From Roseburia sp. (GTDB lineage Bacteria > Bacillota > Clostridia > Lachnospirales > Lachnospiraceae), in the NCBI GenBank assembly GCA_023662875.1, contig JAMPIG010000014.1, forward strand, positions 1 through 51,614: DNA of 51,614 nucleotides, in the 5' to 3' direction. Below the pieces are notes generated by a model. It was not told where the DNA came from. It searched no databases and was given only the letters and a program-made list of their open reading frames with translations. The position numbers and the translations under genes are program-made. Shown here one piece after another: positions 25,152 through 51,581 of this stretch. Position 1 is the stretch's first letter; each line of letters begins with the position of its first letter.

Positions 25152-25152
25152 T

Positions 25153-31970: not shown

Positions 31971-32230
31971 CAGGGAAAAACAAGCGGCTGCGAAGCAGAC
32001 ATTTGTTTTTCGGGCGTCATTAACGAGCAAGCAGCCGATGAAATCGGCGCGGGAGCGCGCAGCGCGGGCTTGCGAGTATAAGCGGGGCCAGGGAAAAACA
32101 AGCGGCTGCGAAGCAGACATTTGTTTTTCGGGCGTCATTAACGAGCAAGCAGCCGATGAAATCGGCGCGGGAGCGCGCAGCGCGGGCTTGCGAGTATAAG
32201 CGGGGCCAGGGAAAACAAGCGGCTGCGAAG
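31971..32230 (+). repeat. Tandem 118-bp repeat in the GH25 gene leader
   Basis: Two identical 118-base units (31971-32088 and 32089-32206) and a 24-base start of a third (32207-32230, one A shorter). Each unit holds a hairpin GAAAAACAA/TTGTTTTTC (31975-31983 with 32003-32011) with a GGCTGCGAAGCAG tip, and then GCAAGC...GCTTGC closing over a GCCGAT-gaa-ATCGGC hairpin and a GC-rich arm. In the first unit, ATGACGCC/GGCGTCAT extends the first stem. The tip and 3' arm are identical over 24 bases to repeat module B (20001-20024). Units end in GAGTATAAGC. Confidence 0.85.
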
Positions 32231-32254
32231 CCGCCGGGAGAAAGGGTTGACAGC

Positions 32255-35200: not shown

Positions 35201-35545
35201 GAGCAGATCAGGAATTATAAGATATCCTACCCGGTGTTTTTGGACGTCGAATCCAGCGGCGGCCGTGCAGACTCGATCAGTAAGGAGACAAGAACGGCCG
35301 TCTGCAAGGCGTTTTGCCAGACTATCCAGAACGCGGGTTATACAGCGGGCATCTACGCCAACAAGCATTGGCTGGAGACCAAAATCAACGCCGGGGAGCT
35401 GAACGCTTATAAGATCTGGCTGGCGCAGTACGCGACGCGGCCTACCTACACCGGGAAATACGACATCTGGCAGTACCGCTCCACCGGTAAGGTAACCGGT
35501 ATCAGCGGGAATGTGGATTTGAACCTGAGTTATATGGGATATTAG
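32255..35545 (+). CDS. Membrane-anchored GH25 muramidase with Ig-like and wall-binding repeats
   Basis: A 1096-residue modular protein. Residues 1-230 are very acidic with repeats of EEPEDYADE; one helix follows (about 235-258, LIAFTGVAVLVLALITGG), so the acidic part should be cytoplasmic. Outside come a prealbumin-like domain (about 330-425), bacterial Ig-like (BIG_2 type) domains (about 505-810), two choline/glucan-binding-type repeats (TGWQTIDGKVYYFNADGEKL, about 845-890), and a C-terminal GH25 domain from [15 protein letters not shown]25 catalytic cues FLDVE and GNVDLN are present, so it should cut peptidoglycan as a lysozyme. ATG 32255 is chosen because the longer frame reads into the repeat. 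A shorter paralogue is at 37746. Confidence 0.87.
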   Translation: MKKLFHHTKQPLEKWFEYEDENYEASYEEDGEDYADEPSYEEPEDYADEPPYEEPEDYADEPPYEEPEDCADESSCEEPEDYADESSYEEMEDYSGESSYVEDGEYEEDGGDGQAYEGGPDSVEEEFSGDVQVDQDEIGYTEEEEEYAGDFEGEISYAEESYEDGGDFEGEIIYTEEPEDYIGEEEYAESDGDEAAEPVYEEYAGDFEGEGDYAEESCEDAEDEAAAGLRGMSVIDRLIAFTGVAVLVLALITGGVFISGRIKQGQVKEFVSVGAQLEDISVIGEAGLLAVADARKAQIAASVIVEENREEENEENKAYEEYEETDYSRQVTVKMDMSSIQKDLKIKFTNQKTGKLIANVPFSVTVKDPDGKTSIWSDDDMDGIIYKKDITAGSYEVAMEKLTDEQYSKYSIDTDKKKVKVKKEIAYEKVDVANEVKKESEVDAKTEDTAKKEVAVESVMQDTVAWVESKEVGNVYTEVTKDTIPNPLTLASLPKSFLRMDTQAAISPAALELEPGKTGALTVGAFAPSLNQGELSVKETGRDVEWSSNQNAVATVDQNGVVTAAAEGTATITYAATVTYEVQKTDSSVSASDPAAVTTETRTEKVTGTCVVTVKAARGALSLTVDKKNATVVVGGSATAQAAASGAAEGQELIFAAKSDQETIATAVVDNAGKITITGVAAGTARITVTVNYKEGAAETAGTAVIDVVVGGNKTVALEKQTCTAYVANLVLLNATIGNVLEPEASVTAVSSDASILKVTLGTMKTENGVTTVPVTLEGLKEGSVVLTVKCVENGEEVQAECVVTVKPDPKQDVKTELKDQDGMQVYVVENNEYRKAFYADYFKFEKFYISTGKKYTGWQTIDGKVYYFNADGEKLTGEQVIQGAKYNFASDGALIQGNGLPGIDVSKWNGTIDWAAVKNSGVDYVIIRCGYRGSSAGKLVEDPKFTTNIKGATAAGLKVGIYFFTQAVDEREAVEEASMVLEQIRNYKISYPVFLDVESSGGRADSISKETRTAVCKAFCQTIQNAGYTAGIYANKHWLETKINAGELNAYKIWLAQYATRPTYTGKYDIWQYRSTGKVTGISGNVDLNLSYMGY

Positions 35546-35626: not shown

Positions 35627-35719
35627 AGAAACAACCGCATCCGGCTCCCGCCGGCGGGGGTAACTTCGGCGGAAAACAGGCGGATAATGCGGAAATACTG
35701 CTTAAGAGAGGTTTCTTCT

Positions 35720-36805
35720 ATGAGAACTTATCTGGTAACCGGAGGCGCGGGCTTTATCGGCTCCAATTATATTCATTATATGTTTCGGAAGTACGGCGAT
35801 GAGATTCGGATCATCAATGTGGACGCGCTGACCTACGCGGGAAACCTGGAAAATCTGAAGGATATTGAAAAACGTCCGAATTACAGCTTTGTCAGGGCGA
35901 ACATCTGCGACAAGGAAGCGATCCAGGCGGTCTTTAGGGAAAACGATATCGACCGGGTCGTCCACTTTGCCGCGGAAAGCCATGTGGACAGGAGCATCCG
36001 GGAACCGGAGGTTTTCGTGAGGACGAACGTGCTGGGGACGGCGGTTATGCTGAACTGCGCCAGAGAGGCCTGGGAGCTGCCGGACGGAAGCTACCGGCCG
36101 GACAAAAAATTCCTGCATGTCTCCACGGACGAGGTTTACGGTTCTCTGCCGGAGGATGACAACGCCTTCTTTTACGAGACGTCGCCCTATTCGCCCCACA
36201 GTCCTTATTCCGCCAGCAAGGCCGGGGCGGATATGCTGGTGAAGGCTTATATGGATACCTATCATTTCCCGGCGAATATTACGAACTGCTCCAATAATTA
36301 CGGCCCTTATCAGTTCCCGGAGAAGCTGATCCCGCTGATTATCAACAATGCGCTTCAGGGAAAGAAGCTTCCGGTCTATGGCGACGGGAAAAACGTCAGG
36401 GACTGGCTGTATGTGGAGGATCACGCGAAGGCCATCGACATGGTACAGGAGCAGGGAAGGCTGTTTGAGACCTATAACGTAGGCGGCCATAACGAAAAAC
36501 AGAATATAGAGATCGTTCGGACGATTCTGGAGGTTTTACAGGAGGTGCTGCCGGAGGGGGATCCCAGAAAAGCGGCAGTCAACGAGGACTTGATTACCTA
36601 CGTGGAGGATCGGAAGGGGCACGACAGGAGATACGCTATCGCGCCGGACAAGATCCGGAAGGAAATCGGCTGGGAGCCGGAGACCATGTTCCGGGAGGGA
36701 ATCCGCAAGACGATCCGCTGGTATTTCGAGCATGAGGAATGGATGAAAAACATGACAAGCGGCGACTACCAGAAATATTACAGCGAGATGTATGAAAACA
36801 GATAA
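35720..36805 (+). CDS. rmlB: dTDP-glucose 4,6-dehydratase
   Basis: A 361-residue extended SDR enzyme. NAD-binding TGGAGFIGSN is at residues 7-16, then NVDALTYAGNLENL, HFAAESHVDRSI, HVSTDEVYG with the catalytic T-D-E, SPYSASKAGAD with the Y-x-x-x-K pair, and NNYGPYQFPEKLIPL. This is RmlB/RfbB, which turns dTDP-glucose into dTDP-4-keto-6-deoxyglucose. ATG 35720 follows GAGAGG; an ATG at 35687 lacks a site. It leads a unit with rmlA, a GH25 gene and rmlC. Its product is shared by RmlC and WecE. A stem-loop separates it from rmlA. Confidence 0.95.
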   Translation: MRTYLVTGGAGFIGSNYIHYMFRKYGDEIRIINVDALTYAGNLENLKDIEKRPNYSFVRANICDKEAIQAVFRENDIDRVVHFAAESHVDRSIREPEVFVRTNVLGTAVMLNCAREAWELPDGSYRPDKKFLHVSTDEVYGSLPEDDNAFFYETSPYSPHSPYSASKAGADMLVKAYMDTYHFPANITNCSNNYGPYQFPEKLIPLIINNALQGKKLPVYGDGKNVRDWLYVEDHAKAIDMVQEQGRLFETYNVGGHNEKQNIEIVRTILEVLQEVLPEGDPRKAAVNEDLITYVEDRKGHDRRYAIAPDKIRKEIGWEPETMFREGIRKTIRWYFEHEEWMKNMTSGDYQKYYSEMYENR

Positions 36806-36843: not shown

Positions 36844-36886
36844 CGGTGTGCAAAGAGGACGGACTTTTTGCGGAAAGAGAGGGTTT

Positions 36887-37756
36887 ATGAAGGGTATTAT
36901 TTTAGCCGGAGGCTCCGGGACAAGACTGTATCCGCTGACAAAGGCGATTTCCAAGCAGATCATGCCGATCTATGATAAGCCGATGATCTATTATCCACTT
37001 TCCACGCTGATGCTGGCAGGGATTCGGGAGATTCTGATTATCTCCACGCCCAGGGATCTGCCTGTGTTCGAGGAACTGCTGGGGGACGGCGCTCAGCTGG
37101 GGATGGAGTTTTCCTACGCGGTACAGGAGAGTCCCAGGGGTCTGGCGGACGCGTTTATTATCGGCGCGGATTTTATCGGCAATGACCGGGTTGCGCTGGT
37201 GCTGGGGGACAATATTTTTTACGGACAGAGCTTTTCCAGAGTGCTGAGGGAGGTGGCGTCCAGAGAGAGCGGGGCTACGATTTTCGGCTATTATGTGCGG
37301 GATCCCAGGGAGTACGGCGTAGTGGAATTCGATGAAAACGGGAAGGCTGTCTCTATTGAGGAGAAGCCGGAGCGGCCGAAGAGCAATTACGCGGTGCCGG
37401 GGCTGTACTTTTACGACAACGATGTAGTGGAGATCGCCCGGAACGTAAAGCCCTCCGCCCGGGGCGAGATTGAGATTACTTCCGTAAACAACGAGTATCT
37501 TGAGAGGGGCTCGCTTTATGTGGAGACGCTGGGGCGGGGCTTTGCCTGGCTGGATACGGGGAACCATGACGCTCTGTTGGACGCGGCGGATTTTGTGGCG
37601 GCCTTCCAGAAGAGGCAGGGGCTGTATATTTCCTGTATCGAGGAGATTGCGTACAAGGGAGGCTTTATCGATCGGGAGCAGCTGCTGAAGCTGGCGGAGC
37701 CGTTGATGAAGACAAATTACGGGAAGTATCTGGTAGAGGTGGCGAATGGACTCTAG
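36887..37756 (+). CDS. rmlA: Glucose-1-phosphate thymidylyltransferase
   Basis: A 289-residue nucleotidyltransferase, the usual RmlA length. The active-site start is [17 protein letters not shown], then [64 protein letters not shown], and [15 protein letters not shown]. It makes dTDP-glucose from dTTP and glucose-1-phosphate, the entry step for RmlB. ATG 36887 is chosen over 36848 because RmlA proteins start at MKG and AGAGGG lies just upstream. The last 11 bases overlap the start of the GH25 gene. Confidence 0.95.
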
Positions 37757-38999
37757 GCTGCGCAGATTGACAATTTTGTCCTGCATGGCGGGAATCCTTC
37801 TGGTGGCGCTGCTGGTTCTTTATATCAACCGTGAGGAGGACAGGTCTCCCCGGGAGACGGAAAGCCCGGAGGAGAGCGGGCCGACGGAAGAGGCGGAAAC
37901 GAGGGAGGATGGGCAGATCGGGGATGACCTGTCGGCATTTTTAAAGGACAATACCTTTTTTGATCAGGAAATCAATCCGATTCTGGAGGCCAGGGAAGAG
38001 GCGTCCAGACTTTCTCTGGTAGTGACGTCCGTGGAGAAGGATCTGCGGATCCAGATTGTGAACCCGGAGGGGGAGCCGGTGACCGGGGAGAGCTTTTTTG
38101 TCAGGCTGGACGGAGTTGGCGAGTACAAGGATCTGGATAAGGACGGAGTGATTTACATCGGCGATCTGTCGGCGGGAGAGTACTATGTAGAGCTTCTGCC
38201 GTTAGAGGGCTATCGCGTGCCGGTGAATGAGACCAGGGTTCGGGTTAAGGATAAGGTAGAGTACCTTGCCATCGACGATATTTCCCTGCTGTTGAAGACC
38301 GAGGCGGATATCGACGCGGAGGCGGAGGATACCGCTGTGGCGGACGCGCTGTCCGACGCGGATAAATCGGAGATCAAGAAGATGCAGACGACCACGGGAA
38401 ATTCCAGGCTGGGGATCGATGTGTCAAAGTGGAACGGAGAGATCGACTGGGATAAGGTTCGCAACGCGGGAGTGGAGTACGCTATCGTCCGCGCGGGCTA
38501 CCGGGGGTCTGTGACGGGAAGTCTGGTGGAGGATCCCTTCTTTGCCGCCAATATGAAGGGGGCGGCAGCCAGCGGCGTACAGACGGGAGTCTATTTTTTT
38601 ACACAGGCTGTAAACGAAGTGGAAGCCGTCGAGGAGGCCTCCGCGGTGATTCAGCTGGTGCGGGAGTATAAGCTGGATTTTCCGATTTTCATCGATACGG
38701 AAGGGGCGGGAGGAAACGGCCGGGCGGACGATCTGGACGCGGATACCAGGACGCTGGTCTGCGAGGCTTTCTGCCGAACGATTGAGAACGCCGGGTATGA
38801 GGCGGGCGTATATGCCAGCCGCAACTGGTATAACAACCGTCTGCACACGGACAGACTGGATAACGATTACTGCATCTGGCTCGCGGAGTACCGCAGCGTT
38901 CCCCTGTATCAGGGTTATTACCAGATCTGGCAGTATACGTCGAAGGGAAAGGTAGACGGTATCTCCGGGAATGTGGATATGAATATAAGCTACTACTAG
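37746..38999 (+). CDS. Membrane-anchored GH25 muramidase, short form
   Basis: A 417-residue protein with an N-terminal membrane anchor (about residues 8-27), an acidic linker, a prealbumin-like domain (about 85-165, [18 protein letters not shown]...[21 protein letters not shown]), and a C-terminal GH25 domain from [13 protein letters not shown] (about 220-417). Cues FIDTE and GNVDMN fit the GH25 active site. Domain order matches the C-terminal half of the 1096-residue protein at 32255 without Ig-like and wall-binding repeats, so the two are paralogues. The ATG overlaps rmlA by 11 bases, and rmlC follows after 86 bases, so a muramidase is co-expressed with sugar-nucleotide genes. Confidence 0.87.
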
Positions 39000-39085
39000 A
39001 AAATCAAGAGGGTAGCAGCTTGGCGAAAAATCAGGGAGCGCGAAGCGCGGAAAAGATTTGCGGCGGAAGAGAGGAGAGGGATAAG

Positions 39086-39634
39086 ATGGGGAAAATAACA
39101 GTGGAAACCTGCGAGATAGAGGGGCTGAAAGTGATTACGCCCGTCGTTCATGGAGACGCCAGGGGATATTTTTATGAATCTTATCACTATGAAGCCTATA
39201 AGGAGGCTGGAATTTCGGATGTCTTTGTGCAGGACAACCAGTCTGCGTCGAAAAGAGGGGTGCTGAGGGGGCTCCATTTTCAGATCGAGCATCCCCAGGC
39301 GAAGCTGGTACGGGTGATTAAGGGAGAGGTGTTCGATGTGGCGGTGGATCTGCGGAAGGGCTCTGCTACCTACGGAAAGTGGCATGGAGTTCTGCTCTCG
39401 GAGGAGAATAAAAAGCAGTTTTATGTGCCGAAGAATTTTGCCCACGGTTTCCTGGTGCTTTCGGACTACGCGGAATTCTGTTATAAGTGTACGGATTTTT
39501 ATCATCCGGGCGACGAGGGCGGAATTATTTACAACGATCCGGCCATCGGCGTGGAGTGGCCGATTCCGGAGGGGATGGAGCTGATCTTCTCCGAGCGGGA
39601 CACGAAATGGGGCGGAATCGACGGCCTGATGTAA
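39086..39634 (+). CDS. rmlC: dTDP-4-dehydrorhamnose 3,5-epimerase
   Basis: A 182-residue cupin-fold epimerase of normal length. Diagnostic blocks are HGDARGYFYESYHYEAY, FVQDNQSASKRGVLRGLHFQ with the catalytic-region histidine, KLVRVIKGEVFDVAVDLR, FYVPKNFAHGFLVLSD and YKCTDFYHPGDEGGI. It epimerises C3 and C5 of dTDP-4-keto-6-deoxyglucose. ATG 39086 follows GAGGAGAGGG, and the extension from 39020 is rejected. The last step to dTDP-rhamnose needs RmlD, which is absent from the window. Confidence 0.95.
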   Translation: MGKITVETCEIEGLKVITPVVHGDARGYFYESYHYEAYKEAGISDVFVQDNQSASKRGVLRGLHFQIEHPQAKLVRVIKGEVFDVAVDLRKGSATYGKWHGVLLSEENKKQFYVPKNFAHGFLVLSDYAEFCYKCTDFYHPGDEGGIIYNDPAIGVEWPIPEGMELIFSERDTKWGGIDGLM

Positions 39635-39827: not shown

Positions 39828-40814
39828 ATGAAGATAAGCAGGAAGGGCGGAACTGCCATATTTTCCCTCATGGGACTGGCGCTGGCGGTCATGATCATCA
39901 TACATCAGAATCCGGGGCCGGATGTGGATCCGCAGCTGGAGCTGGTCAAGAAAATCATATCCTGCGCGGCGATTCTGGCCGCCTGCCTCATCTTTGCGAA
40001 GTGGTACGAAAAGTTCACGACGCTTCCGGCGGAATTGTTCCAGAACAGGCATCTGATCTGGAAGTTGGCAAAGAATGATTTCAAAAAGCGCTATGCCGGT
40101 TCTTATATGGGGGCAGTGTGGGCCATGGTTCAGCCGGTGGTAACGGTTGCCATGTATTATATTGTCTTTGACAAGATCATGGGAAACGGGATCAACCGGG
40201 GGACGGGGGACGTTCCCTTCGTGCTCTTTCTGACTGCGGGCTTGGTACCCTGGTTTTACTTCAGCGAGGCGCTGAACAACGGGACGAACGCCATGCTGGA
40301 GTACAATTATCTGGTCAAGAAGGTCGTCTTTAAGATCAGTATCCTGCCGATTATCAAGATTATCGCGGCCACCTTCATCCATGTGTTTTTTGTCCTTGTG
40401 ATGCTGATCGTTGCGGCGTGCTACGGCTACTATCCCACGGTTTATACGCTTCAGATCTTTTATTACAGCGCCTGTCTGTTTATTTTTGTTCTGGCGCTCT
40501 GCTATACGACCTGCTCCATTGTGGTTTTTTTCAGGGATTTATCCCAGATTATCAATATCGCGCTGCAGATCGGTATGTGGGCGACTCCCATACTCTGGAA
40601 TATAGACAATCTGAGCGCAAAGTGGGTGGTGATTTTGAAGCTGAACCCGCTGGTGTATATCGTGAACGGGTATCGGAGCGCAATCTGCGAAAAGCAGTGG
40701 TTTTTCCAGGACTTTTTCTCCACCATGTATTTTTGGATTGTCACGGTGATTCTGTTCGGGCTGGGCGCGGCGGTGTTTAAGAGGCTGAAGGTACATTTTG
40801 CGGATGTGCTGTAA
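39828..40814 (+). CDS. wzm: ABC-2 polysaccharide export permease (Wzm/TagG-like)
   Basis: A 328-residue permease. The canonical part begins near residue 75 with LIWKLAKNDFKKRYAGSYMG and continues with AVWAMVQPVVTVAMYYIVF, FLTAGLVPWFYFSEALNNG, LVKKVVFKISILP and a last block FKRLKVHFADVL, as in Wzm and TagG. These export complete lipid-linked polysaccharide or teichoic acid with an ATPase partner (the wzt-like gene at 42385). An N-terminal extension of about 75 residues adds two extra helices (about 10-27 and 41-58) not found in standard Wzm. GGGGAG lies five bases before ATG 39828. Gene order wzm, GT-C gene, wzt is unusual because wzm and wzt normally touch. Confidence 0.87.
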   Translation: MKISRKGGTAIFSLMGLALAVMIIIHQNPGPDVDPQLELVKKIISCAAILAACLIFAKWYEKFTTLPAELFQNRHLIWKLAKNDFKKRYAGSYMGAVWAMVQPVVTVAMYYIVFDKIMGNGINRGTGDVPFVLFLTAGLVPWFYFSEALNNGTNAMLEYNYLVKKVVFKISILPIIKIIAATFIHVFFVLVMLIVAACYGYYPTVYTLQIFYYSACLFIFVLALCYTTCSIVVFFRDLSQIINIALQIGMWATPILWNIDNLSAKWVVILKLNPLVYIVNGYRSAICEKQWFFQDFFSTMYFWIVTVILFGLGAAVFKRLKVHFADVL

Positions 40815-40826
40815 GGAAGGGGCGTT

Positions 40827-42324
40827 ATGGGAAAAATGAAAAAGGTGATAAACTGGAAGCCGGATATGCGTCTGGTGGCGGGGCTCGCAGTGGCTGCGCT
40901 CCTGTTGCTGCTGATTCCGCTGCTGCGGATATCGCTCTATACGGCGCCGTATTATGACGATTATATACAGGGAAGGATTGTAAAAAGCCTTTTAGGAGAG
41001 GAAAACAGTCTGAGGAGCGTCTGGCGGGGAGCTGTGTATAATGTGCGGACGTCCTGGTATGCGTGGCAGGGGACATATTCAGCGACTTTCTTTAATTCTC
41101 TCGTGCCCGTTGTATGGGGAGAGCAGTATTATTTTCTGGGTGCTGTTTTTCTGATTTTGCTCCTTCCGGCGTCTGTTTTTGTGCTGGTGGGAGTGCTGGT
41201 CAGGAGCGTGCTGAAGGCAGATCGGGTATCCTGCGTCGCTATGCAGGCTGTTACGGCGGCGATGGTTGTGGTGCTGCTTTATTCGCCGCAGCAGGGCTTT
41301 TATTGGTATGTGGGGGGGATATGTTATGTGGGAATGCACTCTTTCCTGATGCTGACGACTGCCGCATGGGTCAAACTGTTGACGGGGGCAGGTAAGGTAA
41401 AGACAGCGTTGCTGTTTTTATGGACATTGCTGGGAGCGCTGCTGGCGGGAGGCGCTAATTTTGTGACCGGTCTGCAGGGAATTTTGATCTGTCTGGGACT
41501 GGTTGTGTTGGGGGGGGGCATTTCTTCGCCGAAAACGCACCTGGCTGTTGGTTCCGTCTCTTTTGGTTTACGGAGCCGGTTTCTATATGAATATATCCGC
41601 GCCCGGAAATCAGGTCAGGGCTGCTCACTATGTGGGTTGGGGCTATCCGCCTGTGGAGGCTGTCCTGCGTTCCTTTCTGGAGGCGTTCTTGCATCTGGGA
41701 GAATTTTCCGGATGGATCACGGTGGCGGTGATGGCGCTCTTTGTCCCGATTATCTGGTATATGCTGGGGAAAACAGAATTTTCTTTCCGTTTTCCGGCGC
41801 TTGTGCTTGTTGTCTCCTTCTGCCTGTACGCGACGGGGTTCACGCCGACTCTTTACGCTATGGGGCATGGCGGGTACGGCAGAGTTTTGAATTGTGTAAA
41901 AATCACTTATCAGATTCTCCTGATCCTGAACGAGGTCTATTGTCTGGGGTGGCTCAGGGGCTATCTTGCGAAGAGAGGGAAAAAAGATTTCCGGGAGGGT
42001 GCGCCCTGGTGGTTTTACGGACTGGTCGGGGCGGGAATGCTGGTCATCTTTGCCTTTTTTTCGCGCAGTCAGGCAGGGTGTTATTCTTCTTACGGGGCGT
42101 ACTATTTTGTGCATACGGGAGAGGCGTATAATTTCTATCAGGAGTATTTAAACAGGATAGAGACGATTGTAAACGGCGGGGAGGATGTGGTCGTGGAGCC
42201 GTATTACTATAGGCCCTGGTTCCTTTGCATAGAGGATCTGAGCGCGGATCCCAGCGCGGAGAAAAACCAGGCTATGGCGCAGTGGTACGGTAAAAACTCT
42301 ATCACCTGTGTGGCACCGGAGTAG
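40827..42324 (+). pseudogene. GT-C-like (DUF6056-type) membrane protein, frameshifted at a G9 tract
   Basis: Read as one gene this encodes about 498 residues: a polytopic protein with an early acidic outside loop (TAPYYDDYIQG), about ten helices, and a C-terminal tail ending in NSITCVAPE. The first frame (from ATG 40827) is protein-like up to LVVLGGG at the run of nine Gs (41510-41518), then turns into unrelated sequence. The downstream membrane sequence (RTWLLVPSLLVYGAGFYMN) is in the next frame, open to 42324. Eight Gs would restore one frame. This is a slipped-strand OFF state, a true pseudogene or a homopolymer sequencing error. A sugar-transferring role is inferred from the topology and DD loop. 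Confidence 0.75.
41510..41518 (+). repeat. Poly-G tract (G9) at the frameshift
   Basis: Nine consecutive Gs within a coding region at the exact point where the reading frame breaks; G8 or G11 gives a full-length protein. Another G7 run is in frame at 41312-41318 in the same gene. Confidence 0.85.
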
Positions 42325-42384
42325 GGAGGATGTATTGGATTCGGCATGAGAGATTTTGCTGAATATTGAGGCTTGAGGGTTGGA

Positions 42385-43914
42385 TTGAAAAGCAGAGGTA
42401 AACCTGCGTTTTTCGCCGTCGGGAACCCGCAGGCTGCGGAAAGGCATGGTATTAGTGTGATTCGAGCGAAAGTGCGTGAGATTGATGTGCCTGCCATTGA
42501 GGTTTTAGACGTGGTAAAGGTTTATAAGCTGTATGACAAGCCGCGGGACAGGGTAAAGGAAGCCTTCGGGTTCGGGAAAAGGCAGATGTATAAGCCGCAT
42601 TATGCCTTAAACGGCGTCAGTATGTGTATTTTTCGGGGAGAGACGGTAGGAATCATCGGAACCAACGGCTCGGGGAAATCCACGATTCTGAAGATCATTA
42701 CGGGAGTCCTGACGCCGACCTCGGGGACGGTAAATGTGGACGGACGGATCTCGGCGCTTCTGGAGCTGGGAGCAGGATTTAATCAGGAGTATAACGGGAT
42801 TGAAAATATATATCTGAACGGCACAATGATGGGATTTTCCGAAAAGGAGATTGACGAAAGACTTCCGGACATTCTGGAGTTTGCCGATATCGGAGATTAT
42901 GTCTATCAGCCGGTGAAAACCTATTCCAGCGGTATGTTCGTGCGGCTTGCGTTCGCGGTAGCCATCAATATCGATCCGGAAATCCTGATCGTGGACGAGG
43001 CACTTTCCGTGGGGGATGTCTTTTTTCAGGCAAAATGCTATCACAAATTTGAGGAGTTTAAGAAGCTGGGAAAGACGATTGTCTTTGTCAGTCATGACTT
43101 GAGCAGCATCAGCAAATACTGCGACAGGGTTTTCCTGCTAAACAAAGGGACGCTTTTGGGCGAGGGATCGCCGAAGGAGATGATTGACGCCTATAAGAGA
43201 GTGCTGGTGGGACAGTATGAGACGCCGGATGAGCAGGAGAGCGGCGGCCTGCTGGAGGATCCGCAGCTGCGCCGGGCGGCCGGGAGCGGCAGAGGGCAAA
43301 AGGCCGGAAATCCTGCGGAAAACACAGCGGAGGGGAACGCGGATCCTGCGGGCGGAAAAGGCAGAGGGCAAAAGGCCGGAAGCCCTGCGGGGAGGAACAC
43401 GGATTTTGCGGACAAAGGACGGAAGCCGTGGAGCGTTGCGGACGGCGTGGAGCGGAAAAACCCGGACGCGCTGGAGTACGGAACAGGTCAGGCGAGGATT
43501 GAGGAGTACTATGTGACGGATGACCGCGGCGTGCGGACGGCGGCGGTCATCAAGGGAAGCGAGTTCACATTGCACATGCGGGTGAAATTCCTGGATTCCA
43601 TACCGGCTCCGATTTTTGCCTTTTCCGTGAAAAATGCAATCGGTACGGAGATCACGGGAACAAACACGATGATCGAGAAAGCTTTTTTGGAGAGTGTGGA
43701 GCCAGGACAGGAAAAGGATGTTACCTTTACGCAGAGGATGAGTCTTCAGGGCGGAGAATATCTGCTGTCGCTGGGCGTGACCGGCTACAACGGCGATACG
43801 TTTGAGGTATATCACAGACTTTACGACGTCCTGAATATCACGGTGATTTCGGATAAAAATACGGTGGGGTATTACGATATGGATTCCGTGGTGAAGGTCA
43901 CGGATGCGAGGTAG
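42385..43914 (+). CDS. wzt: Polysaccharide export ATPase with C-terminal cargo domain (Wzt-like)
   Basis: About 509 residues. The NBD has Walker A GTNGSGKST (near 92), Q-loop region LELGAGFNQEYNGIENIYLNG, signature YSSGMFVRLAFA, Walker B ILIVDEALSVGD and H-loop VSHD, all typical of Wzt/TagH. A glycine- and alanine-rich linker (about 290-365) contains a 72-base repeat giving GRGQKAG twice. The last 140 residues (RIEEYYVTDDRG...EYLLSLGVTGYNGDTFEVYHRLYD) resemble the Wzt C-terminal carbohydrate-binding domain, which recognises the capped polymer end. The start is uncertain: TTG 42385 has GAGGG five bases upstream, TTG 42373 has no spacing, and GTG codons near 42457-42472 would be closer to the usual N-terminus. 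Confidence 0.87.
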   Translation: MKSRGKPAFFAVGNPQAAERHGISVIRAKVREIDVPAIEVLDVVKVYKLYDKPRDRVKEAFGFGKRQMYKPHYALNGVSMCIFRGETVGIIGTNGSGKSTILKIITGVLTPTSGTVNVDGRISALLELGAGFNQEYNGIENIYLNGTMMGFSEKEIDERLPDILEFADIGDYVYQPVKTYSSGMFVRLAFAVAINIDPEILIVDEALSVGDVFFQAKCYHKFEEFKKLGKTIVFVSHDLSSISKYCDRVFLLNKGTLLGEGSPKEMIDAYKRVLVGQYETPDEQESGGLLEDPQLRRAAGSGRGQKAGNPAENTAEGNADPAGGKGRGQKAGSPAGRNTDFADKGRKPWSVADGVERKNPDALEYGTGQARIEEYYVTDDRGVRTAAVIKGSEFTLHMRVKFLDSIPAPIFAFSVKNAIGTEITGTNTMIEKAFLESVEPGQEKDVTFTQRMSLQGGEYLLSLGVTGYNGDTFEVYHRLYDVLNITVISDKNTVGYYDMDSVVKVTDAR

Positions 43915-43917
43915 TTT

Positions 43918-45972
43918 ATGGCGGAAGAGATTGGCGGGGTAAAACTGGATTACAGCAGATATCCGGAAAAGGATTTTTACAGCGACGGGAGTGTGGAGGA
44001 TGAGATTCTGGAGATTGTGAAAGCGCATTCCCCTTCGGAGTATGCAGGGGTGATAGAGGAGCGGAAGAGTTGGCCGGTTCTCTATCATTTGTCGCCTCTT
44101 CGGGAGAATATTGTGGACTGGCTCCCTATGAAAAAAACGGACAGGGTGTTGGAGGTCGGCAGCGGCTGCGGCGCGATCACAGGGGCTCTCGCGCGGAAGG
44201 CGGGGAGCGTGACCTGCGTGGAGCTTTCGAAGAAGAGAAGTCTGATTAACGCGTACAGGCACAAAGACTGCGATAACATCACGATTCATGTCGGGAATTT
44301 TAAAGATATTGAACCGGAGCTTGCGAAGGACTATGATTACATTTGTCTGATCGGGGTTTTTGAATATGCGCAGAGCTATATCGGCGGAGAGACGCCGTTC
44401 CATGATTTTATCAAGATTCTGCTTCCGCATCTGGCGGAGGGCGGCAGGCTTGTCATTGCCATCGAAAATAAGTATGGACTGAAATATTTCGCGGGCTGTA
44501 AGGAGGATCATCTGGGCAGTTGGTTTTCCGGTATCGAGAACTATGCGGGCGGCGGGGGCGTCCGCACCTTCAGCCGCAGGGGGCTGGAAAAGATATTCCA
44601 AAGCTGCGGAATAAAGGAAACACATTTTTATTACCCGTACCCGGATTATAAGTTTATGACGTCGCTGTACAGCGACGCTTATCTGCCCGGAAAAGGTGAG
44701 CTTACGAATAATCTCCGCAACTTTGACAGGGACAGGATGCTTTTGTTCGACGAGAGCAGCGCGTTCGACGGGATTCTGGAGGACGAGCTTTTCCCGGTGT
44801 TCTCCAATTCCTTTTTGGCGGTAATCGGAGGTAATCTGGAGGTCAAATATGTGAAGTACTCCAATGACAGAGCTTCCGAGTATTCCGTAAAAACGGAAAT
44901 CGGCAGAGATGCGAAAAGGGAAATCTTTGTCCGAAAATATCCGATGAGCGAGGCGGCCAGGGAGCATGTGCGCGGAATGGCGCTGGCGTATGAGAGGCTT
45001 CTGGAGAAATACGCGGGGGGCAGACTGGAAATCAATCAGTGCAGGCTGATTGAGGAGGGGGAAAGCATTTTTGCCCAGTTCCCGTATGTGTACGGAACCC
45101 CGCTTTCCGAATTGATGGATAAGTGCCTGGAGAAGGGCGACCGGGAGGGATTTTATGAATATTTTCGGGAATATGTAGAGCGCATCGGGTATAACGGCGA
45201 TTATCCGGCGGCGGATTTTGACCCGATTTTTTCGAACATTCTTGTAAATAAAGACAAATGGACGCTGATTGATTACGAATGGACCTTCGGCAAGCCTATC
45301 AAAACGGAAGAGCTCGCGTTTCGGGCGGTCTATTGTTACCTTTTGGAAAATCCCGCAAGGGAAAAGATAAATCTTGATTTGATCTTAAAGGAATTGGGTT
45401 TATCGGAGGAGGCGGCGGAGAACTATCGGAATCAGGAACGGGATTTCCAGCAGTTTGTCACCGGAAACCGTGTGCCCATGACGAAAATGCGGGATTTGCT
45501 GGGATATCGCATGATGGTTCCGCAAAAGTGGATCGAGAGGTATACGGATTCCGCGGATGTGAACCGTGTGCAGATTTATGAGGACAGGGGGAGCGGTTTT
45601 TCGGAGGAAGAGTCCTATTTTATCCCTGAGGCGTATCAGGGGGAAAACAGGATAGAGCTGAAGCTTCCGGTCAGCGGGGAGGTTCAGGCGTTGCGGATTG
45701 ATCCCTCTTTTGCCAGCTGCGTGGTAAGGATCGAGGAGATGACCTTTAACGGGGAAGCGGTGCCCTTCGACAAAAAGAAAGTATTACAGGTCAACGGCAG
45801 GATCGCTCGGCCTGCCACGCTGATTTTTCCGACTGCAGACCCGAATATCTGTCTTTCCCTGCGGGAGCTGAACAGGCAGGCTGAAAATATGCTTTATGCG
45901 CGTATGGAGATCACGCGGCTTGCCCCTGCCATGGCGCAGGAGCTGGCGAACGCGGTGAAAAAGCTGATCTGA
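43918..45972 (+). CDS. SAM methyltransferase fused to a kinase-like domain (WbdD-like)
   Basis: A 684-residue soluble protein. The N-terminal third is a class I methyltransferase: motif I is VLEVGSGCGAITGAL (near 78-92), then CVELSKKRS, and LIGVFEYAQSYIGG as motif IV. After about residue 310 comes a kinase-like region of the aminoglycoside/LPS-kinase type: a possible ATP-binding lysine in EIFVRKYP, then DFDPIFSNILVNKDKWTLIDYEW (near 433-456) with D-x-x-x-x-N and D-x-E metal-binding cues. A methyltransferase-kinase beside wzm/wzt is the design of WbdD, which caps O9a O-antigen with methyl phosphate and stops growth. It starts three bases after wzt and is followed by two polymer GT2 enzymes. 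Function is by analogy. Confidence 0.72.
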   Translation: MAEEIGGVKLDYSRYPEKDFYSDGSVEDEILEIVKAHSPSEYAGVIEERKSWPVLYHLSPLRENIVDWLPMKKTDRVLEVGSGCGAITGALARKAGSVTCVELSKKRSLINAYRHKDCDNITIHVGNFKDIEPELAKDYDYICLIGVFEYAQSYIGGETPFHDFIKILLPHLAEGGRLVIAIENKYGLKYFAGCKEDHLGSWFSGIENYAGGGGVRTFSRRGLEKIFQSCGIKETHFYYPYPDYKFMTSLYSDAYLPGKGELTNNLRNFDRDRMLLFDESSAFDGILEDELFPVFSNSFLAVIGGNLEVKYVKYSNDRASEYSVKTEIGRDAKREIFVRKYPMSEAAREHVRGMALAYERLLEKYAGGRLEINQCRLIEEGESIFAQFPYVYGTPLSELMDKCLEKGDREGFYEYFREYVERIGYNGDYPAADFDPIFSNILVNKDKWTLIDYEWTFGKPIKTEELAFRAVYCYLLENPAREKINLDLILKELGLSEEAAENYRNQERDFQQFVTGNRVPMTKMRDLLGYRMMVPQKWIERYTDSADVNRVQIYEDRGSGFSEEESYFIPEAYQGENRIELKLPVSGEVQALRIDPSFASCVVRIEEMTFNGEAVPFDKKKVLQVNGRIARPATLIFPTADPNICLSLRELNRQAENMLYARMEITRLAPAMAQELANAVKKLI

Positions 45973-45985
45973 ACAGGAGTGAGCG

Positions 45986-48475
45986 GTGGGAATAAAAGAG
46001 CGGATAAAACAGGCGCTGACGGAAAAAGAGGACAGGAGATATGGTCGGCTGCTGGCGGCCAGGCAGGGAACCTACGAGACATGGCTTGCCGCGCAGGAAA
46101 AGCTCTGGGCGGGAGAGAATGGGGAAGATCGGAGCGGCCCGGACAAAGCAGGGAGCGCGGACAGGCAGGGCCAGGCTTCGGAAGAGTTTGTGCTGATTCA
46201 GGCCTGCGGCGGAGTCGTTGCTCCTTGGGCCAAGAGAAATATCGAGCGTTATTTTAATAAGAATCCGGAGGTTCAGGCAGTATACTGTGACGAGGATGTC
46301 AGGACGGCGGAGGGCGAGTCCTGTTTTCCCTGGTTTAAGCCGGACTGGTCCCCCGATTTTCTGGACAGCTGCCTGTACTTTGGAGGGCTTGTGGCAGTGC
46401 GGCGCAGCCGGTGGGAGATGACGGAAAGCTTTTATGAGAGTGCCGGTTCCGGGGAGCAGCAGTCGTGTTTTGAGAAAAAAGAAAACGGATGTTATTTTGT
46501 GAACGACAGGGAAGCCTATGAAGAATGGCTGCATCGCTGCGTTGAGGATGGCTATAAAAGGAGCAGTGTTTCGATCGGACACATCCCGCAGATTTTGTTT
46601 CACGCCGAAGGCCGGGAGGAGCAGGAGCGTTTTCTGGAGGAGTCGGAGTATCTGAAGAGAAGGAGGAAGAAGCTTCTGGCGGACTTTTGCGGCTGCTATG
46701 CGGGCGCGTGCAGAGTGCAGATGGACGGGCCGCAGACGGGCAGCCTGGGCGCGGACGGAGTGCAGACGGACGGATCGCAGGCGGGCAGCCTGGGCGCGGA
46801 CGGAGTGCAGACGGACGGATCGCAGGCGGGCAGCCTGGGCGCAGATGAACCGCAGACGGACAGACCGCAGGTGGGCAGTCGGGGCGCAGATGAATCGCAG
46901 GCGGGTGAACCGGCGGTGTCGGTGGTGATTCCGTCCAAAGATCACCCGGATCTTCTGCGGCAGTGTGTGGAAAGCGTGAAGGTATCCGGCAAGGGTATTC
47001 CGTTGGAAATCATTGTCATGGATAACGGGAGCGGAGCCGACAACAGAGAAAAGATAGAAAAGATGCTGCGGGAAGAGGCGGGAGGCGGCGCAGCAGGCAG
47101 CAGCTCGGACGAAGCGCGATTATCGATTCAGTATGTGTATCAGCCTATGGTCTTTCACTTTTCCCGAATGTGTAATCTGGGCGCGGAAAAGGCAAGAGGA
47201 GAGCTTCTGTTATTTTTAAACGATGACGTTGTATTAAGGGACTCCTGTATTCGGGAGATGGCGGCCCGGGCGGCCCGAGACTATACGGGAGCGGTGGGTT
47301 TAAAGCTTTTGTATCCGGAGACGGAGCGGATTCAACACGCGGGAATTACGAATCTTCCGATGGGGCCGGTACACAAGCTGCAGTCCCTGCCGGACGACAG
47401 AGATTATTACGGGAAGGCAAATAACGGCTGCCGGAATTTTCTGGCGGTGACGGCGGCCTGCCTGATGGTGGAGAAGAAGAAATTTGCGGAGGCGGGAGGC
47501 TTCTGCGAGGAGCTGCCGGTGGCGTTTAACGATGTGGCGCTTTGCTTTCGGTTATACGAATTGGGATATCATAACGTATGCCTGAACGATATTTTCGCTT
47601 ATCATTATGAGTCCGCAAGCCGCGGGGACGACGAATCGCCCGAAAAGCTGAGACGGCTGCTGGGAGAGAAAAAGAAGCTGTACGAGCTTTATCCCGGGCT
47701 GGAAGGAAGGGATCCCTATTATTCCGTTTTCCTGAACAGGGAGGGGCTGGACGTGAGGATCGAGCCTTCCTACAGGACGGCGGGGAACAGAGCGCAGGAG
47801 GCAGGTTCGCTGAAGCAGGAGACAGAATTGTCAAAATACAGGCAGGATGAGTGTCTGCTGGTGCGGGTGGAGGATATCCGCGGGGAGAGCGTTGTCGGTT
47901 GGAGCGTCGTGCTGGGGGACGATAACGCATGTTATGATAAGCGATTTTTGCTGTTGCCGTTAGGGGAGAGGACAGAAGAGCAAAAGATAGAAGAACAAGG
48001 CTCGGAAGAGCAAAAGACAGAAGAGCAAAAGACAGAAGAGCAAAAGACAGAAGAGCAAAAGACAGAAGAGCAAAAGCCAGAAGAACAAGGCTCGGAAGAG
48101 CAAAGGCTGGAAGAGCAAAGGCCGGACGAACAGAAATTGGAAGAATATCGTCTGGAAGGGCGGAGAGCAGAAGGACAGAAACTGGAGACCCAGGGATTGG
48201 AAGGACAAAGATTGGGAAAAGGGCAGGAACGCGCAGGGAAAAACGGCGAAGAGAAAAGCGACGGCATTGTCTACGGCATTGCTCTGAAAGGGCAGCTTCG
48301 TCCGGATCTGGAGGAAAATATGCCGGATCAGAAAAATGTGGCGTTGAGCGGATTCTGGTTAAGACTGTCCGCAGATGCCGTACCTCCCGGCAACTATCGG
48401 ATCGGGATAAGCGCCCGCAATCGGGTGACGGGACTGAGGCTGGTAAACTGGAGCAACAGGACAATAGAGGTATAG
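45986..48475 (+). CDS. Large GT2 glycosyltransferase with repeat-rich inserts
   Basis: An 829-residue protein starting at GTG 45986, after AGGAG. The N-terminal third holds an eroded GT2-like segment (AVYCDEDVR...FPWFKPDWSPDFLDSCLYFGGLVAVRRS) without a complete donor-binding start. A linker of 15-residue repeats (DGVQTDGSQAGSLGA) follows, then a full GT2 domain (VSVVIPSKDHPDLLRQCVESV near 310, LLLFLNDDVVL as the DxD region, AVTAACLMVEKKKF, and ELPVAFNDVALCFRLYELGY). A second insert of EEQKT units (about 660-760) precedes a C-terminal beta-rich domain that may bind glycan. It pairs with the complete tandem GT2 next door and probably builds the exported chain. Confidence 0.8.
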   Translation: MGIKERIKQALTEKEDRRYGRLLAARQGTYETWLAAQEKLWAGENGEDRSGPDKAGSADRQGQASEEFVLIQACGGVVAPWAKRNIERYFNKNPEVQAVYCDEDVRTAEGESCFPWFKPDWSPDFLDSCLYFGGLVAVRRSRWEMTESFYESAGSGEQQSCFEKKENGCYFVNDREAYEEWLHRCVEDGYKRSSVSIGHIPQILFHAEGREEQERFLEESEYLKRRRKKLLADFCGCYAGACRVQMDGPQTGSLGADGVQTDGSQAGSLGADGVQTDGSQAGSLGADEPQTDRPQVGSRGADESQAGEPAVSVVIPSKDHPDLLRQCVESVKVSGKGIPLEIIVMDNGSGADNREKIEKMLREEAGGGAAGSSSDEARLSIQYVYQPMVFHFSRMCNLGAEKARGELLLFLNDDVVLRDSCIREMAARAARDYTGAVGLKLLYPETERIQHAGITNLPMGPVHKLQSLPDDRDYYGKANNGCRNFLAVTAACLMVEKKKFAEAGGFCEELPVAFNDVALCFRLYELGYHNVCLNDIFAYHYESASRGDDESPEKLRRLLGEKKKLYELYPGLEGRDPYYSVFLNREGLDVRIEPSYRTAGNRAQEAGSLKQETELSKYRQDECLLVRVEDIRGESVVGWSVVLGDDNACYDKRFLLLPLGERTEEQKIEEQGSEEQKTEEQKTEEQKTEEQKTEEQKPEEQGSEEQRLEEQRPDEQKLEEYRLEGRRAEGQKLETQGLEGQRLGKGQERAGKNGEEKSDGIVYGIALKGQLRPDLEENMPDQKNVALSGFWLRLSADAVPPGNYRIGISARNRVTGLRLVNWSNRTIEV
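46726..46917 (+). repeat. 45-bp in-frame minisatellite
   Basis: Two near-identical 45-base units (46741-46785, 46786-46830), a diverged third (46831-46875) and partial ends, encoding 15-residue blocks around QTDGSQAGSLGA. Length change would keep the frame. Confidence 0.8.
47971..48130 (+). repeat. 15-bp in-frame minisatellite
   Basis: Four exact tandem copies of gacagaagagcaaaa (48016-48075) are flanked by diverged copies. A block giving EEQGSEEQ occurs twice, 90 bases apart (near 47990 and 48080). The region encodes a highly charged EEQ-rich linker. Confidence 0.85.
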
Positions 48476-48593: not shown

Positions 48594-50609
48594 ATGGAGC
48601 AGACAGATTACAGGGAAGAATACGAGAGAGAACACCTGAAATGCGCGGAGCTGGCGGGACGTGTCGCCGATTTGGAGGCGAAAAACGAGGAGCTGGAGTG
48701 GAAGCTGAACCGCATTAAAAAGAATCCGCTCTGGAAAGCGAGTAAACCGGCGCGGAATGCGCTTCACTGGGTGATCCGGCAGCGTGACAGGCTGAAAAAC
48801 TGCGGCGGCCCGAGGGGCGTGCTTCGCAAGCTGGATTACAAAAAGCGGGAAAGGGAGGCTATGAAGCAGTTCGGGACGGAAAGCTTCCCGGACGAGGCGC
48901 AGGCGGCCCGAGAGCGGGAGACCGTGTTCCCAAGGATGGTAAAGATCAGTATCCTTGTGCCCCTTTGGAACAATCAGCGGCAGTTTCAGACGGAAATGCT
49001 GGATTCCGTGATGAACCAGACCTATCAGAACTGGGAGCTTTGCCTGGCGGACGGCTCGGACGATGAGCACGCCTATATCGGCGAGATCTGCCGGGAGTAC
49101 GCGCAGAAGGCGGGCGGTCGTGTCGTCTACCGGCGTCTGGCGAAAAACGAAGGGATTTCCGGCAATACCAACGCGTGTCTTGCCATGGCTACAGGGGAGT
49201 ACGTCGGCCTGCTGGATCAGGACGATATTCTGCATCCCAGCGTCCTTTACGAGTATGTAAAGGCGATTAACGAGCAGGGAGCGGATTATTTATACTGCGA
49301 TGAAACCACCTTTAAGGGCGGCGATATCAATCATATGCTGACCATGCATTTTAAGCCGGATTACGCGCCGGATAATCTCCGGGCAAATAATTACATCTGT
49401 CATTTCAGCGTTTTCCGGCGCACCCTGTTGGAGGGGAACGAGCTGTTCCGAACAAAGTATGACGGCAGCCAGGATCATGATATGATCCTGCGGCTTACGG
49501 ACAATGCGGAAAAGATCGTACATGTGCCCAGGCTGATGTACTATTGGAGGAGTCATTCCGGCAGCGTGGCGGCAGGCATTGAGGCGAAGCCCTATGCCAT
49601 TGAAGCGGCCAAGTCGGCGGTGGCGGAGCATCTTCGCAAGCACGGCTTCGAGCATTTTAAGATTGAGAGTACCAGGGCCTTTGAGACGATCTTTCGGATT
49701 CGCTATCAGATTATCGGGACGCCGAAGATCTCCATTGTGATCGCAAACAGGGATCATGCGGCGGATCTGCGCCGCTGCGTCTCCTCGATTCTGGAAAAGT
49801 CAACCTACGACAATTATGAGATTGTCATTGTGGAAAACAACAGCGCCACGAAGGAGATTCGGGATTATTACGGCGAGCTGCTGGGGGAGGAGTACCGGGG
49901 AGCGGAGGAGAGTATACAGCACAGCACGGATAATAAAATAACAATCGTCACTTATAAGGGAGATTTCAATTACTCGGCGGTGAACAATCTGGGAGTGCGA
50001 TATTCTACGGGAGAGTACATTCTGCTTTTAAATAATGACACGGAAGTCATTACCGTAAACTGGCTGGAGGAGCTTCTGATGTATGCCCAGCGGGAGGATG
50101 TGGGAGCGGTTGGTGCCAAGCTGTATTACGAGGACAGAACAATCCAGCACGCTGGCGTGGTGATCGGACTGGGTGCCCACAGGACGGCGGGACATACGCA
50201 TTACAAGCAGCATCGTCAGAATCTGGGATATATGGGAAGGTTGTGCTATGCTCAAAACGTAACAGCTGTTACCGGAGCCTGCCTGATGGTAAAAAAGAGT
50301 CTGTATGAGGCGGTGGGAGGACTGGACGAGGAGTTTGCCGTCGCGCTGAACGACGTGGATTTCTGTCTGAAGCTGCGGGAACGCGGACTTTTGAATATCT
50401 TTACGCCATTCGCGGAGCTTTATCATTACGAGTCCGCCTCCAGAGGCTCGGATATTAATGGGGGAGGAAACGCGGAGCGCTATGACCGGGAGAGCGGAAA
50501 ATTCCGGGAGAAGTGGAAGAAGCAGCTGGAGGCGGGCGACCCGTATTATAACCGCAATTTTTCTCTTGACAGAAGCGATTTTTCGTTGAAGGTGACTGAC
50601 CGGAAATAG
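48594..50609 (+). CDS. Tandem-domain GT2 glycosyltransferase
   Basis: A 671-residue cytoplasmic protein. Residues 1-50 form a heptad-like coiled coil (LAGRVADLEAKNEELEWKL). The first GT2 domain begins at ISILVPLWNNQRQFQTEML (near 120), with LLDQDDILHPSV as the DxD region and YYWRSHSGSV. The second begins at ISIVIANRDHAADLRRCVSSI (near 375), with LLLNNDTEVIT, AVTGACLMVKKSLYE and FAVALNDVDFCLKLRERGL. Two-domain GT2 enzymes of this type polymerise or extend surface glycans such as rhamnans and O-antigens. ATG 48594 follows ACAGGAGAG. It lies between the repeat-rich GT2 and the interrupted MBOAT gene. Sugar specificity is not predictable. Confidence 0.87.
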   Translation: MEQTDYREEYEREHLKCAELAGRVADLEAKNEELEWKLNRIKKNPLWKASKPARNALHWVIRQRDRLKNCGGPRGVLRKLDYKKREREAMKQFGTESFPDEAQAARERETVFPRMVKISILVPLWNNQRQFQTEMLDSVMNQTYQNWELCLADGSDDEHAYIGEICREYAQKAGGRVVYRRLAKNEGISGNTNACLAMATGEYVGLLDQDDILHPSVLYEYVKAINEQGADYLYCDETTFKGGDINHMLTMHFKPDYAPDNLRANNYICHFSVFRRTLLEGNELFRTKYDGSQDHDMILRLTDNAEKIVHVPRLMYYWRSHSGSVAAGIEAKPYAIEAAKSAVAEHLRKHGFEHFKIESTRAFETIFRIRYQIIGTPKISIVIANRDHAADLRRCVSSILEKSTYDNYEIVIVENNSATKEIRDYYGELLGEEYRGAEESIQHSTDNKITIVTYKGDFNYSAVNNLGVRYSTGEYILLLNNDTEVITVNWLEELLMYAQREDVGAVGAKLYYEDRTIQHAGVVIGLGAHRTAGHTHYKQHRQNLGYMGRLCYAQNVTAVTGACLMVKKSLYEAVGGLDEEFAVALNDVDFCLKLRERGLLNIFTPFAELYHYESASRGSDINGGGNAERYDRESGKFREKWKKQLEAGDPYYNRNFSLDRSDFSLKVTDRK

Positions 50610-50618
50610 GAGAGGGCC

Positions 50619-51581
50619 ATGCTTTTTAATTCTTATGTGTTTATTTTATTCTTCCTGCCGCTGGCTCTCCTTCTGTATTATGGCCTGAATCGTTATGCCC
50701 GATATGAGCTGGCTAAGGCTGCGCTGATCCTGATGTCCTTATGGTTTTACGCCTTTTTTCATTGGAGCTATGTTTTTATTTTGCTGGCAAGTATCCTGGT
50801 GAATTACGGCATATCCGTATGGATGTTGAAAAAGGCGGGAAATCATGGTTTTCGCAGGTTTCTGCTGATCGCCGGTATTGTTTTGAATCTGGGAGTGATT
50901 GGCTATTATAAGTATCTGGATTTTATGTTCGGCAGTATTAACGATTTCTTCGGTACGCAGCTTCCGCTTCTCCGTGTTTTGATGCCGCTGGGGATCAGTT
51001 TTTTTACCTTTCAGCAGATTTCCTGGCTGGTAGACTCCTGGCGGGGAGAGATCAGGCCGTGTTCTTTTACGGATTATGCTCTTTTTGTGACCTTTTTTCC
51101 ACAGCTTGTGGCGGGGCCGATTGTAACCGGTCAGGAGATGCTGTCGCAGTTTTCAGATCCGGGGAGAAAGCGGTTCGGCCAGGAGGAAATGGCCAGAGGA
51201 ATTTATCTGTTTTCAGTCGGATTGTTCAAGAAGGTAATTCTGGCGGATACTCTGGGGGCGGGCGTTGATTGGGGATTTGCCGTGCTGACAAGCCTGTCCT
51301 GTGCGGATACCTTGGTGGTCGCGCTATTATATACGCTGCAGCTTTATTTTGATTTCAGCGGCTATTGCGATATGGCCTGCGGCATTGCCGCAATGTTTCA
51401 TATGGATCTGCCCGTCAATTTTAATTCTCCCTATAAAGCGGTATCGGTGGCGGATTTTTGGAAGAGATGGCATATGTCGCTGACCCGGTTCCTTACAAGA
51501 TATATTTATTATCCCCTTGGAGGCAGTCAGCGCGGGAGAATAAGGACATTTTGCAATATTTTACTCAAACTTCGCACTTAA
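50619..51581 (+). pseudogene. MBOAT O-acyltransferase interrupted by an insertion
   Basis: The first 315 or so residues are a normal MBOAT protein: LMPLGISFFTFQQISWLVDSW, FFPQLVAGPIVTG, LQLYFDFSGYCDMACGI, FWKRWHMSLTRFLTRYIYYPLGG with the first active-site His. The next expected block is the second invariant histidine (GLWHG-like), but after FCNILL the frame reads KLRT and stops at 51579-51581. The break falls just after TTAC (51561-51564), where a different sequence with an IS200/IS605-like hairpin begins. The protein should therefore be inactive unless the element leaves. AGGAG precedes ATG 50619. It is the second MBOAT gene in the window; the intact one is at 6645. Confidence 0.85.

Follow-up and report, generated by a model that had tools for sequence, protein, structure and literature searches.

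What does an enzyme do whose gene stands between a polysaccharide exporter and the glycosyltransferases that would build the exported chain? The question was raised by a 51,614-nucleotide stretch of Roseburia sp. DNA (assembly GCA_023662875.1, contig JAMPIG010000014.1), called here the window, in which the exporter genes wzm and wzt are followed at 43918..45972 (+) by a gene for a methyltransferase-kinase of 684 residues. Based on all comparisons, it was concluded that this protein probably terminates glycan chains in the manner of Klebsiella O7 ORF6: the kinase would phosphorylate the chain end and the methyltransferase would methylate the phosphate, the cap stopping further growth. The window is contig C55 of an assembly totalling 3.7 Mb in 151 contigs, with a completeness of ~92%. 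The probable host is a Gram-positive bacterium of the gut, as 67 of the 80 related loci studied come from Lachnospiraceae or Acetatifactor (counted from titles); one of them, L021, belongs to the cultured Acetatifactor muris DSM 23669.

These loci were obtained by scanning genome contigs with the enzyme, which gave 452 relatives, 80 of which were kept for study. An alignment of 57 rows (A1) combined the window with 56 of these loci; the 24 omitted loci were picked without a preset rule and included the closest one (L002), a split one (L060) and a fused one (L049). Residue conservation over all loci was counted in 81 sequences, namely the 80 loci and the window, and the neighbourhood counts used all 80.

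Three domains were delimited in the enzyme: a methyltransferase (residues ~1-303), a kinase (~304-548; 44827..45561, +) and a beta-rich C-terminal domain (~549-668). The N-terminal part matched PF13489 and other families. Residues 304-684 gave no Pfam match at E ≤ 0.1, no kinase family was found in Pfam and NCBIfam scans of the enzyme, and no glycosyltransferase family was found within 43918..45972 in the Pfam scans. A phmmer search with the single protein returned methyltransferases on top (best E 0.0015), and none of the 36 sequences at E ≤ 10 was a kinase by name. The 57-row profiles matched protein kinases of the PDB weakly over positions ~304-451 (E 0.0084 and 0.019, among the best 60 of 92 matches), and the profile of the kinase part alone gave a protein kinase match of E 0.0068 (among the best 60 of 64). 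Because it is without a Pfam match in this part, the annotated relatives examined are named only methyltransferase or glycosyltransferase.

The fold search with a model of the whole enzyme yielded methyltransferases only, among the matches listed (best 50 of 1996 and best 50 of 1000), and the kinase was therefore modelled alone. Residues 304-548 (model m7a170e90361a) were predicted with a predicted local distance difference test (pLDDT) value of 86.7, and Foldseek matched this model to kinases (best 50 of at least 2000; best 50 of 1000). By title, 49 of the best 50 of at least 2000 matches were kinases, kinase-fold phosphotransferases or complexes holding one; 7cz2 was the sole match with an ambiguous title. 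It was concluded from the model that the C-terminal part of the enzyme has a kinase fold, and the first-pass annotation of this DNA, which had read the gene as a methyltransferase fused to a kinase-like domain and named the fold of the C-terminal part as a point to check, was borne out in this respect.

Residues K340, D435, N440 and D452, which lie in the motif region DPIFSN...IDYEW and upstream of it, were invariant in all 57 rows, the window included, and belong to the set of positions conserved in ≥95% of the 81 sequences. The motif D-x4-N...(D/E)-x-EW was kept in 23 of the 24 open reading frames (ORFs) that matched the kinase profile, including those where the kinase is separate or otherwise fused. 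The model of the enzyme ends with the beta domain (551-667) and a single short helix. The beta-rich domain also recurs in other proteins, at L121:5332-6663, L126:7711-9189 and L149:936-2579, beside genes with a Wzt_C domain and without the enzyme, and it reads as a shared carbohydrate-related module.

Further, the family of the enzyme was assigned. According to the available part of its description, ORF6 of K. pneumoniae O7 phosphorylates the terminal rhamnose at O3 and then methylates this phosphate, as established by assay, nuclear magnetic resonance (NMR) and mutation, and its chain holds a methyltransferase, a kinase, an immunoglobulin-like carbohydrate-binding module, a coil and two GT2 domains in one polypeptide (PMC11231755). 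In the same part, orthologues are listed from cyanobacteria and from the alpha and gamma classes of proteobacteria, and Methanoculleus is given as having a homologue, with no mention of Firmicutes. The likeness to ORF6 was followed only through a P. asturiensis protein and the published residue numbers. A tblastn search of plasmids gave two relatives, a P. asturiensis protein of 1457 residues and a Citrobacter braakii protein of 649 residues, both adjoining a permease and an ATPase with Wzt_C; the C. braakii one also lies near rml genes. No match to the Citrobacter gene was found by blastn among E. coli genomes.

The enzyme profile aligned with the O7-ORF6-like P. asturiensis protein over 554 columns (probability 100, E 4e-40), spanning the methyltransferase, the kinase and the beginning of the beta domain; the window enzyme is 26% identical to this proteobacterial relative (L113). 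The P. asturiensis protein carries Y28, Y66, G91, G93, E112 and Y158 at the numbers published for ORF6, and its D443 is two off D441 (numbers from the available part of PMC11231755). D435 of the window aligns with D443, the match to D441 of ORF6 being by residue number and not by sequence. Through this protein, the S-adenosylmethionine-binding residues and the catalytic Asp of the window enzyme fall at places matching ORF6.

The first-pass annotation had called the enzyme WbdD-like. In hhalign, the profile aligned with WbdD of E. coli HS over only 83 methyltransferase columns (probability 47), and the kinase alone gave a probability of 0.35, the comparator being a single sequence in both cases; it is annotated merely as a methyltransferase and was taken for WbdD by its position and its length of 708 residues. 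WbdD as the nearest relative was rejected on this alignment, and the name was replaced by the O7 ORF6 assignment; WbdD is, as judged from these profiles, an analogue of the enzyme and not a near relative. WbdD entries were not among the matches listed in the fold and PDB profile searches, which is no evidence of difference.

The exporter itself was recognized as first annotated, a permease and a Wzt-type ATPase. The wzm gene (39828..40814, +) matched PF01061 (ABC-2, E 2.4e-15), and its product shares 28% identity with O9 Wzm from E. coli HS. The wzt gene (42373..43914, +) encodes an ATPase with a carbohydrate-binding Wzt_C domain at residues 367-503; PF00005 and PF14524 (E 3.4e-40) were both above the cut-off, and Wzt_C had a single match in its own genome. 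The product is 34% identical to the O9 Wzt of E. coli HS in an alignment that spans the C-terminal domain, and 35% identical to the P. asturiensis Wzt. The true start of wzt is probably ~35-40 codons downstream of the first TTG, because the homology to O9 Wzt starts only at residue 41 of the listed ORF.

The association of the enzyme with Wzt is far beyond chance. Wzt lies within 2 kb upstream of the enzyme in 77 of the 80 loci and within less than 400 bp in 75; of the other three loci, two have it 3.7 kb ahead of the enzyme, and the third is on a contig that begins at the enzyme. A chance neighbourhood was rejected on these counts. Two genome samples were also searched, an order sample of 147 genomes and a phylum sample of 348, which share some genomes and both include the genome of the window; kinship between genomes was left uncorrected in the statistics. 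The order sample held 25 genomes with a match to the enzyme profile and 35 with Wzt_C, 22 having both, so that Wzt_C was present in 22/25 genomes with a profile match vs 13/122 without. The corresponding numbers in the phylum sample were 11, 38 (5 of them below the curated cut-off) and 8, that is 8/11 vs 30/337. The co-occurrence with Wzt C-terminal domains, proposed earlier as a check, was confirmed.

The association extended to the Wzt subtype. In the order sample, all 22 genomes with the strongest Wzt_C (at least 134 bits) matched the enzyme, vs none of the 13 with weaker Wzt_C only (at most 117 bits). A comparison of selected loci took in 15 of a set of 16 (L108 omitted), 10 loci with the enzyme from the order sample, 10 from the phylum sample, L082, L113, L114 and the window, and also 15 places where Wzt_C occurs apart from the enzyme. 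At these 15 places, neither the methyltransferase nor the kinase profile matched any ORF.

The enzyme is followed by two glycosyltransferase genes on the same strand, GT2a (45986..48475; PF00535 E 1e-15), a candidate chain builder, and GT2b (48594..50609), a tandem GT2-GT2 protein with PF00535 in two stretches and a candidate coiled coil at residues 7-44. The P. asturiensis protein has a GT2-GT2 part at its C-terminus, with which GT2b shares 36% identity. A separate GT2b-like gene lies within 3.5 kb downstream of the enzyme in 56 of the 80 loci, 61 of which have room for it. L049 contains both halves in a single frame of 1366 residues, in which residues 1-678 of the enzyme match 3-691 and residues 7-667 of GT2b match 707-1364.

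Coiled coils were sought by a home-made score, for which a threshold of 0.35 gave one false positive (hisD) in eight negatives. None was detected in the terminator by this score (best 0.29 vs 0.48 for the WbdD control), and the enzyme was filed as a split variant because no coil was detected in its polypeptide, the candidate being on GT2b. Of 79 terminators, 16 reached a score of 0.35, for the most part in a helix of the kinase around residue 485, vs 51 of the 54 GT2b N-termini (13 of the 54 reached 0.42). Among the wider relatives, L095, L097, L101, L103, L105 and P. asturiensis L113 reached 0.35, and L093, L102 and L114 stayed under it in the full run. As judged by these alignments, the enzyme would be an O7-ORF6-type terminator split in two, not a full member of that type, in a probable Gram-positive host.

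It was proposed that GT2a and GT2b build a lipid-linked surface polymer, the non-reducing end of which would be phosphorylated by the kinase domain. The methyltransferase domain would then methylate the terminal phosphate, and this methyl-phosphate cap would halt chain growth. Wzt_C would bind the cap and Wzm/Wzt would export the chain, which an LCP protein may attach to the cell wall. The domains, the conserved catalytic residues, the predicted fold, the operon and its preserved surroundings were established from the sequences, whereas homology is the ground for proposing that the cap is a methyl phosphate, that it sits at the chain end and that Wzt reads it. The candidate coil of GT2b might set chain length as a ruler, and an LCP ligase could conceivably join the chain to the cell wall; the initiating sugar-phosphate transferase of the genome (PF02397) adjoins an LCP protein (PF03816) on contig C73. 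Rhamnose may be a constituent of the polymer, as suggested by the rmlB-, rmlA- and rmlC-like genes upstream, an RmlD-family gene elsewhere and relatives fused to RgpF. Of the initial proposal that a terminator, an export tag and a Wzt reader share one operon, the gene set, the kinase fold and the Wzt_C co-occurrence were retained, and the near kinship to WbdD was given up; the coiled-coil ruler that WbdD has was not detected in the protein.

Other explanations were weighed against this mechanism. A true WbdD orthologue of the E. coli O9a type, with a coiled-coil ruler and a mannan substrate, would agree with the order wzm-wzt-terminator-glycosyltransferases found in E. coli HS O9, with the matching domain order and with the Wzt identity; the hhalign result for the kinase, the lack of a detected coil in the enzyme and the rml-like genes directly upstream make it highly improbable. 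It is also quite improbable that the methyltransferase alone adds a plain methyl ether, as was proposed for Geobacillus WsaE and described for the E. coli O8 WbdD, next to a kinase that is an inactive scaffold. The only Gram-positive cap precedent found with Wzm/Wzt is indeed a methyl group (available part of PMC2943079), but the four kinase residues are invariant, the motif persists in kinases that are encoded separately or fused elsewhere, and L093 and L094 retain the kinase where no methyltransferase of the family was found.

The phosphate or methyl phosphate could instead be placed on internal or side-chain residues, as a decoration without a role in chain length or export. Fold and residues cannot separate terminal from internal acceptors, and the enzymes of G052 and G084 adjoin a Wzt that lacks the C-terminal domain. 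This explanation was nevertheless considered unlikely, given the tight coupling to Wzt_C, the fusions to polymerases and the homologous O7 enzyme, which acts on the non-reducing terminal rhamnose and whose kinase mutant D441A accumulates unexported chains (available part of PMC11231755).

Several observations weigh against the chain terminator proposed here. A wide distance separates the kinase of the window from those of proteobacteria (91.7 with the kinase taken alone); of the two proteobacterial relatives, one has H and the other R in place of K340, and D452 is kept in one and replaced by E in the other. The coil on GT2b is only suggestive, as it relies on a home-made score with a false positive. 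No match to RgpF was found in the genome, at the assembly completeness given above, and a rhamnan is uncertain for this reason. Among the 25 genomes with a profile match in the order sample, the methyltransferase and kinase of G052 (L105) and G084 (L106) stand beside a short Wzt without Wzt_C, which speaks against cap reading in these two, and no Wzt was present in the 7 kb examined of a third, G014 (L108). The ATPase part of Wzt splits in the same way as the Wzt_C subtypes; shared operon descent therefore explains part of the association, and co-inheritance of the operon could account for the subtype match. To our knowledge, no member of this terminator family has been assayed in any Gram-positive bacterium.

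The relatives also occur in other arrangements. The methyltransferase and the kinase are separate genes in L095, L096, L097, L101, L105, L106, L137 and L140. The kinase is joined to GT2 in L095, L097 and L137, and to RgpF in L093, L094 and L101. No methyltransferase of the family was found in L093 and L094 (G103, G133) within the 13 kb examined at a scan E of 1e-20; their kinase, fused to RgpF and a HAD-like part, is a possible bare-phosphate terminator. The kinase of L105 ends, as read from its translation, with a long repeated helix-like tail. Tentatively, and with some doubt, we proposed that Lachnospiraceae and their relatives hold a modular, reshuffled terminator family (in one chain, split, fused to GT2 or RgpF, or kinase-only) that would be read by one Wzt_C subtype, with the length ruler moved from the terminator to the polymerase. 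If so, the kinase-only L093 and L094 would leave a bare phosphate cap, and capped wall polysaccharides would be widespread among Lachnospiraceae of the gut. Natural variants of the pathway, split or fused, allow a direct test of whether a coil must link terminator and polymerase to set chain length.

The gene order from 39020 was rmlC, wzm, a DUF6056 gene, wzt, the methyltransferase-kinase, GT2a, GT2b and an MBOAT gene near the contig end, with gaps of 3 bp between wzt and the enzyme, 13 bp between the enzyme and GT2a, and 118 bp between GT2a and GT2b. Upstream, and also on the forward strand, lie rmlB-like (35687..36805; dTDP (deoxythymidine diphosphate)-glucose 4,6-dehydratase, PF16363 E 2e-92) and rmlA-like (36848..37756; nucleotidyltransferase, PF00483 E 3e-77) genes, the rml names of which were inferred from the gene set, and rmlC (39020..39634; dTDP-4-dehydrorhamnose 3,5-epimerase, PF00908 E 8e-71). 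An rmlC homologue is also close to wzm in L095, L096, L098 and L107, and the best RmlD-family match of the genome is on another contig, C63. The membrane protein gene between wzm and wzt (40827..42324, +), overlooked in the first annotation, has a broken frame of two overlapping ORFs, 40827-42131 and 41503-42324, with PF19528 on the 3' piece; the close locus L002, with which the pieces were compared singly, has an intact relative of 509 residues. The break is either an assembly error or real.

Other genes of the window also suggest surface polymers. The stretches 17402-18490 and 23598-26190 hold a GtrII-type glucosyltransferase gene (PF14264) that adjoins a GT2 gene, and another GT2 of similar build; these resemble a module that would glucosylate side chains of an exported polymer. 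MBOAT genes at 6645-9398, followed by a DHHW/AlgX-like protein, and at 50619-51581, at the contig end, probably serve surface-polysaccharide O-acylation. A DegT aminotransferase, a GNAT acetyltransferase and a cytidylyltransferase (15559-17343 and 22037-22726) suggest a pathway to a cytidine monophosphate-activated nonulosonic acid, a tentative name. Two GH25 lysozyme-like proteins are encoded at 32156-35545, with a long stretch of acidic repeats and a repeat of the choline-binding type, and at 37746-38999, within the rml gene group.

With the proposed terminator, phosphate-capped, quality-controlled export, a route of Gram-negative O antigens, would extend to Gram-positive bacteria of the gut. 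The polymer is predicted to end in a methyl phosphate or a phosphate, which 31P NMR could detect. Nothing on terminators of the methyltransferase-kinase type from Firmicutes was found in the titles and abstract openings listed from open-licence papers. The idea of capped export in a Gram-positive is older, as it was proposed for Geobacillus stearothermophilus WsaE with Wzm/Wzt and a plain methyl cap (PMC2943079). Like WsaE, as presented in the available part of that article, the window combines a Gram-positive host and a rhamnose polymer, both as qualified above, with a cap-type terminator gene that adjoins an ABC transporter and a cap proposed to be read by Wzt. WsaE caps by 2-O-methylation and has two glycosyltransferase domains in its chain, with no kinase described in that part, whereas the window enzyme has a predicted kinase fold.

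WbdD of E. coli O9a and K. pneumoniae O3 is likewise a methyltransferase-kinase that adjoins Wzm and a Wzt with a C-terminal domain, in the same gene order. It has a C-terminal coiled coil and its substrate is mannan (PMC3482155), whereas the window protein ends in the beta-rich domain and its kinase sequence is not recognisably related by hhalign. The closest likeness was found with ORF6, to which the methyltransferase, kinase and beta-rich domains are collinear (the last likened to the carbohydrate-binding module by its beta strands only), with wzm and wzt adjoining and a GT2-GT2 polymerase part in the cluster. Unlike ORF6, the window divides these functions between two proteins whose genes are separated by another GT2 gene, its terminator is without a detected coiled coil, its host is probably Gram-positive, and it is known from genes alone. 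The P. asturiensis protein WP_024686765.1 (L113:9920-14293), the better of the two plasmid relatives, unites both halves in a single polypeptide annotated merely as a glycosyltransferase, whereas in the window they are separate proteins.

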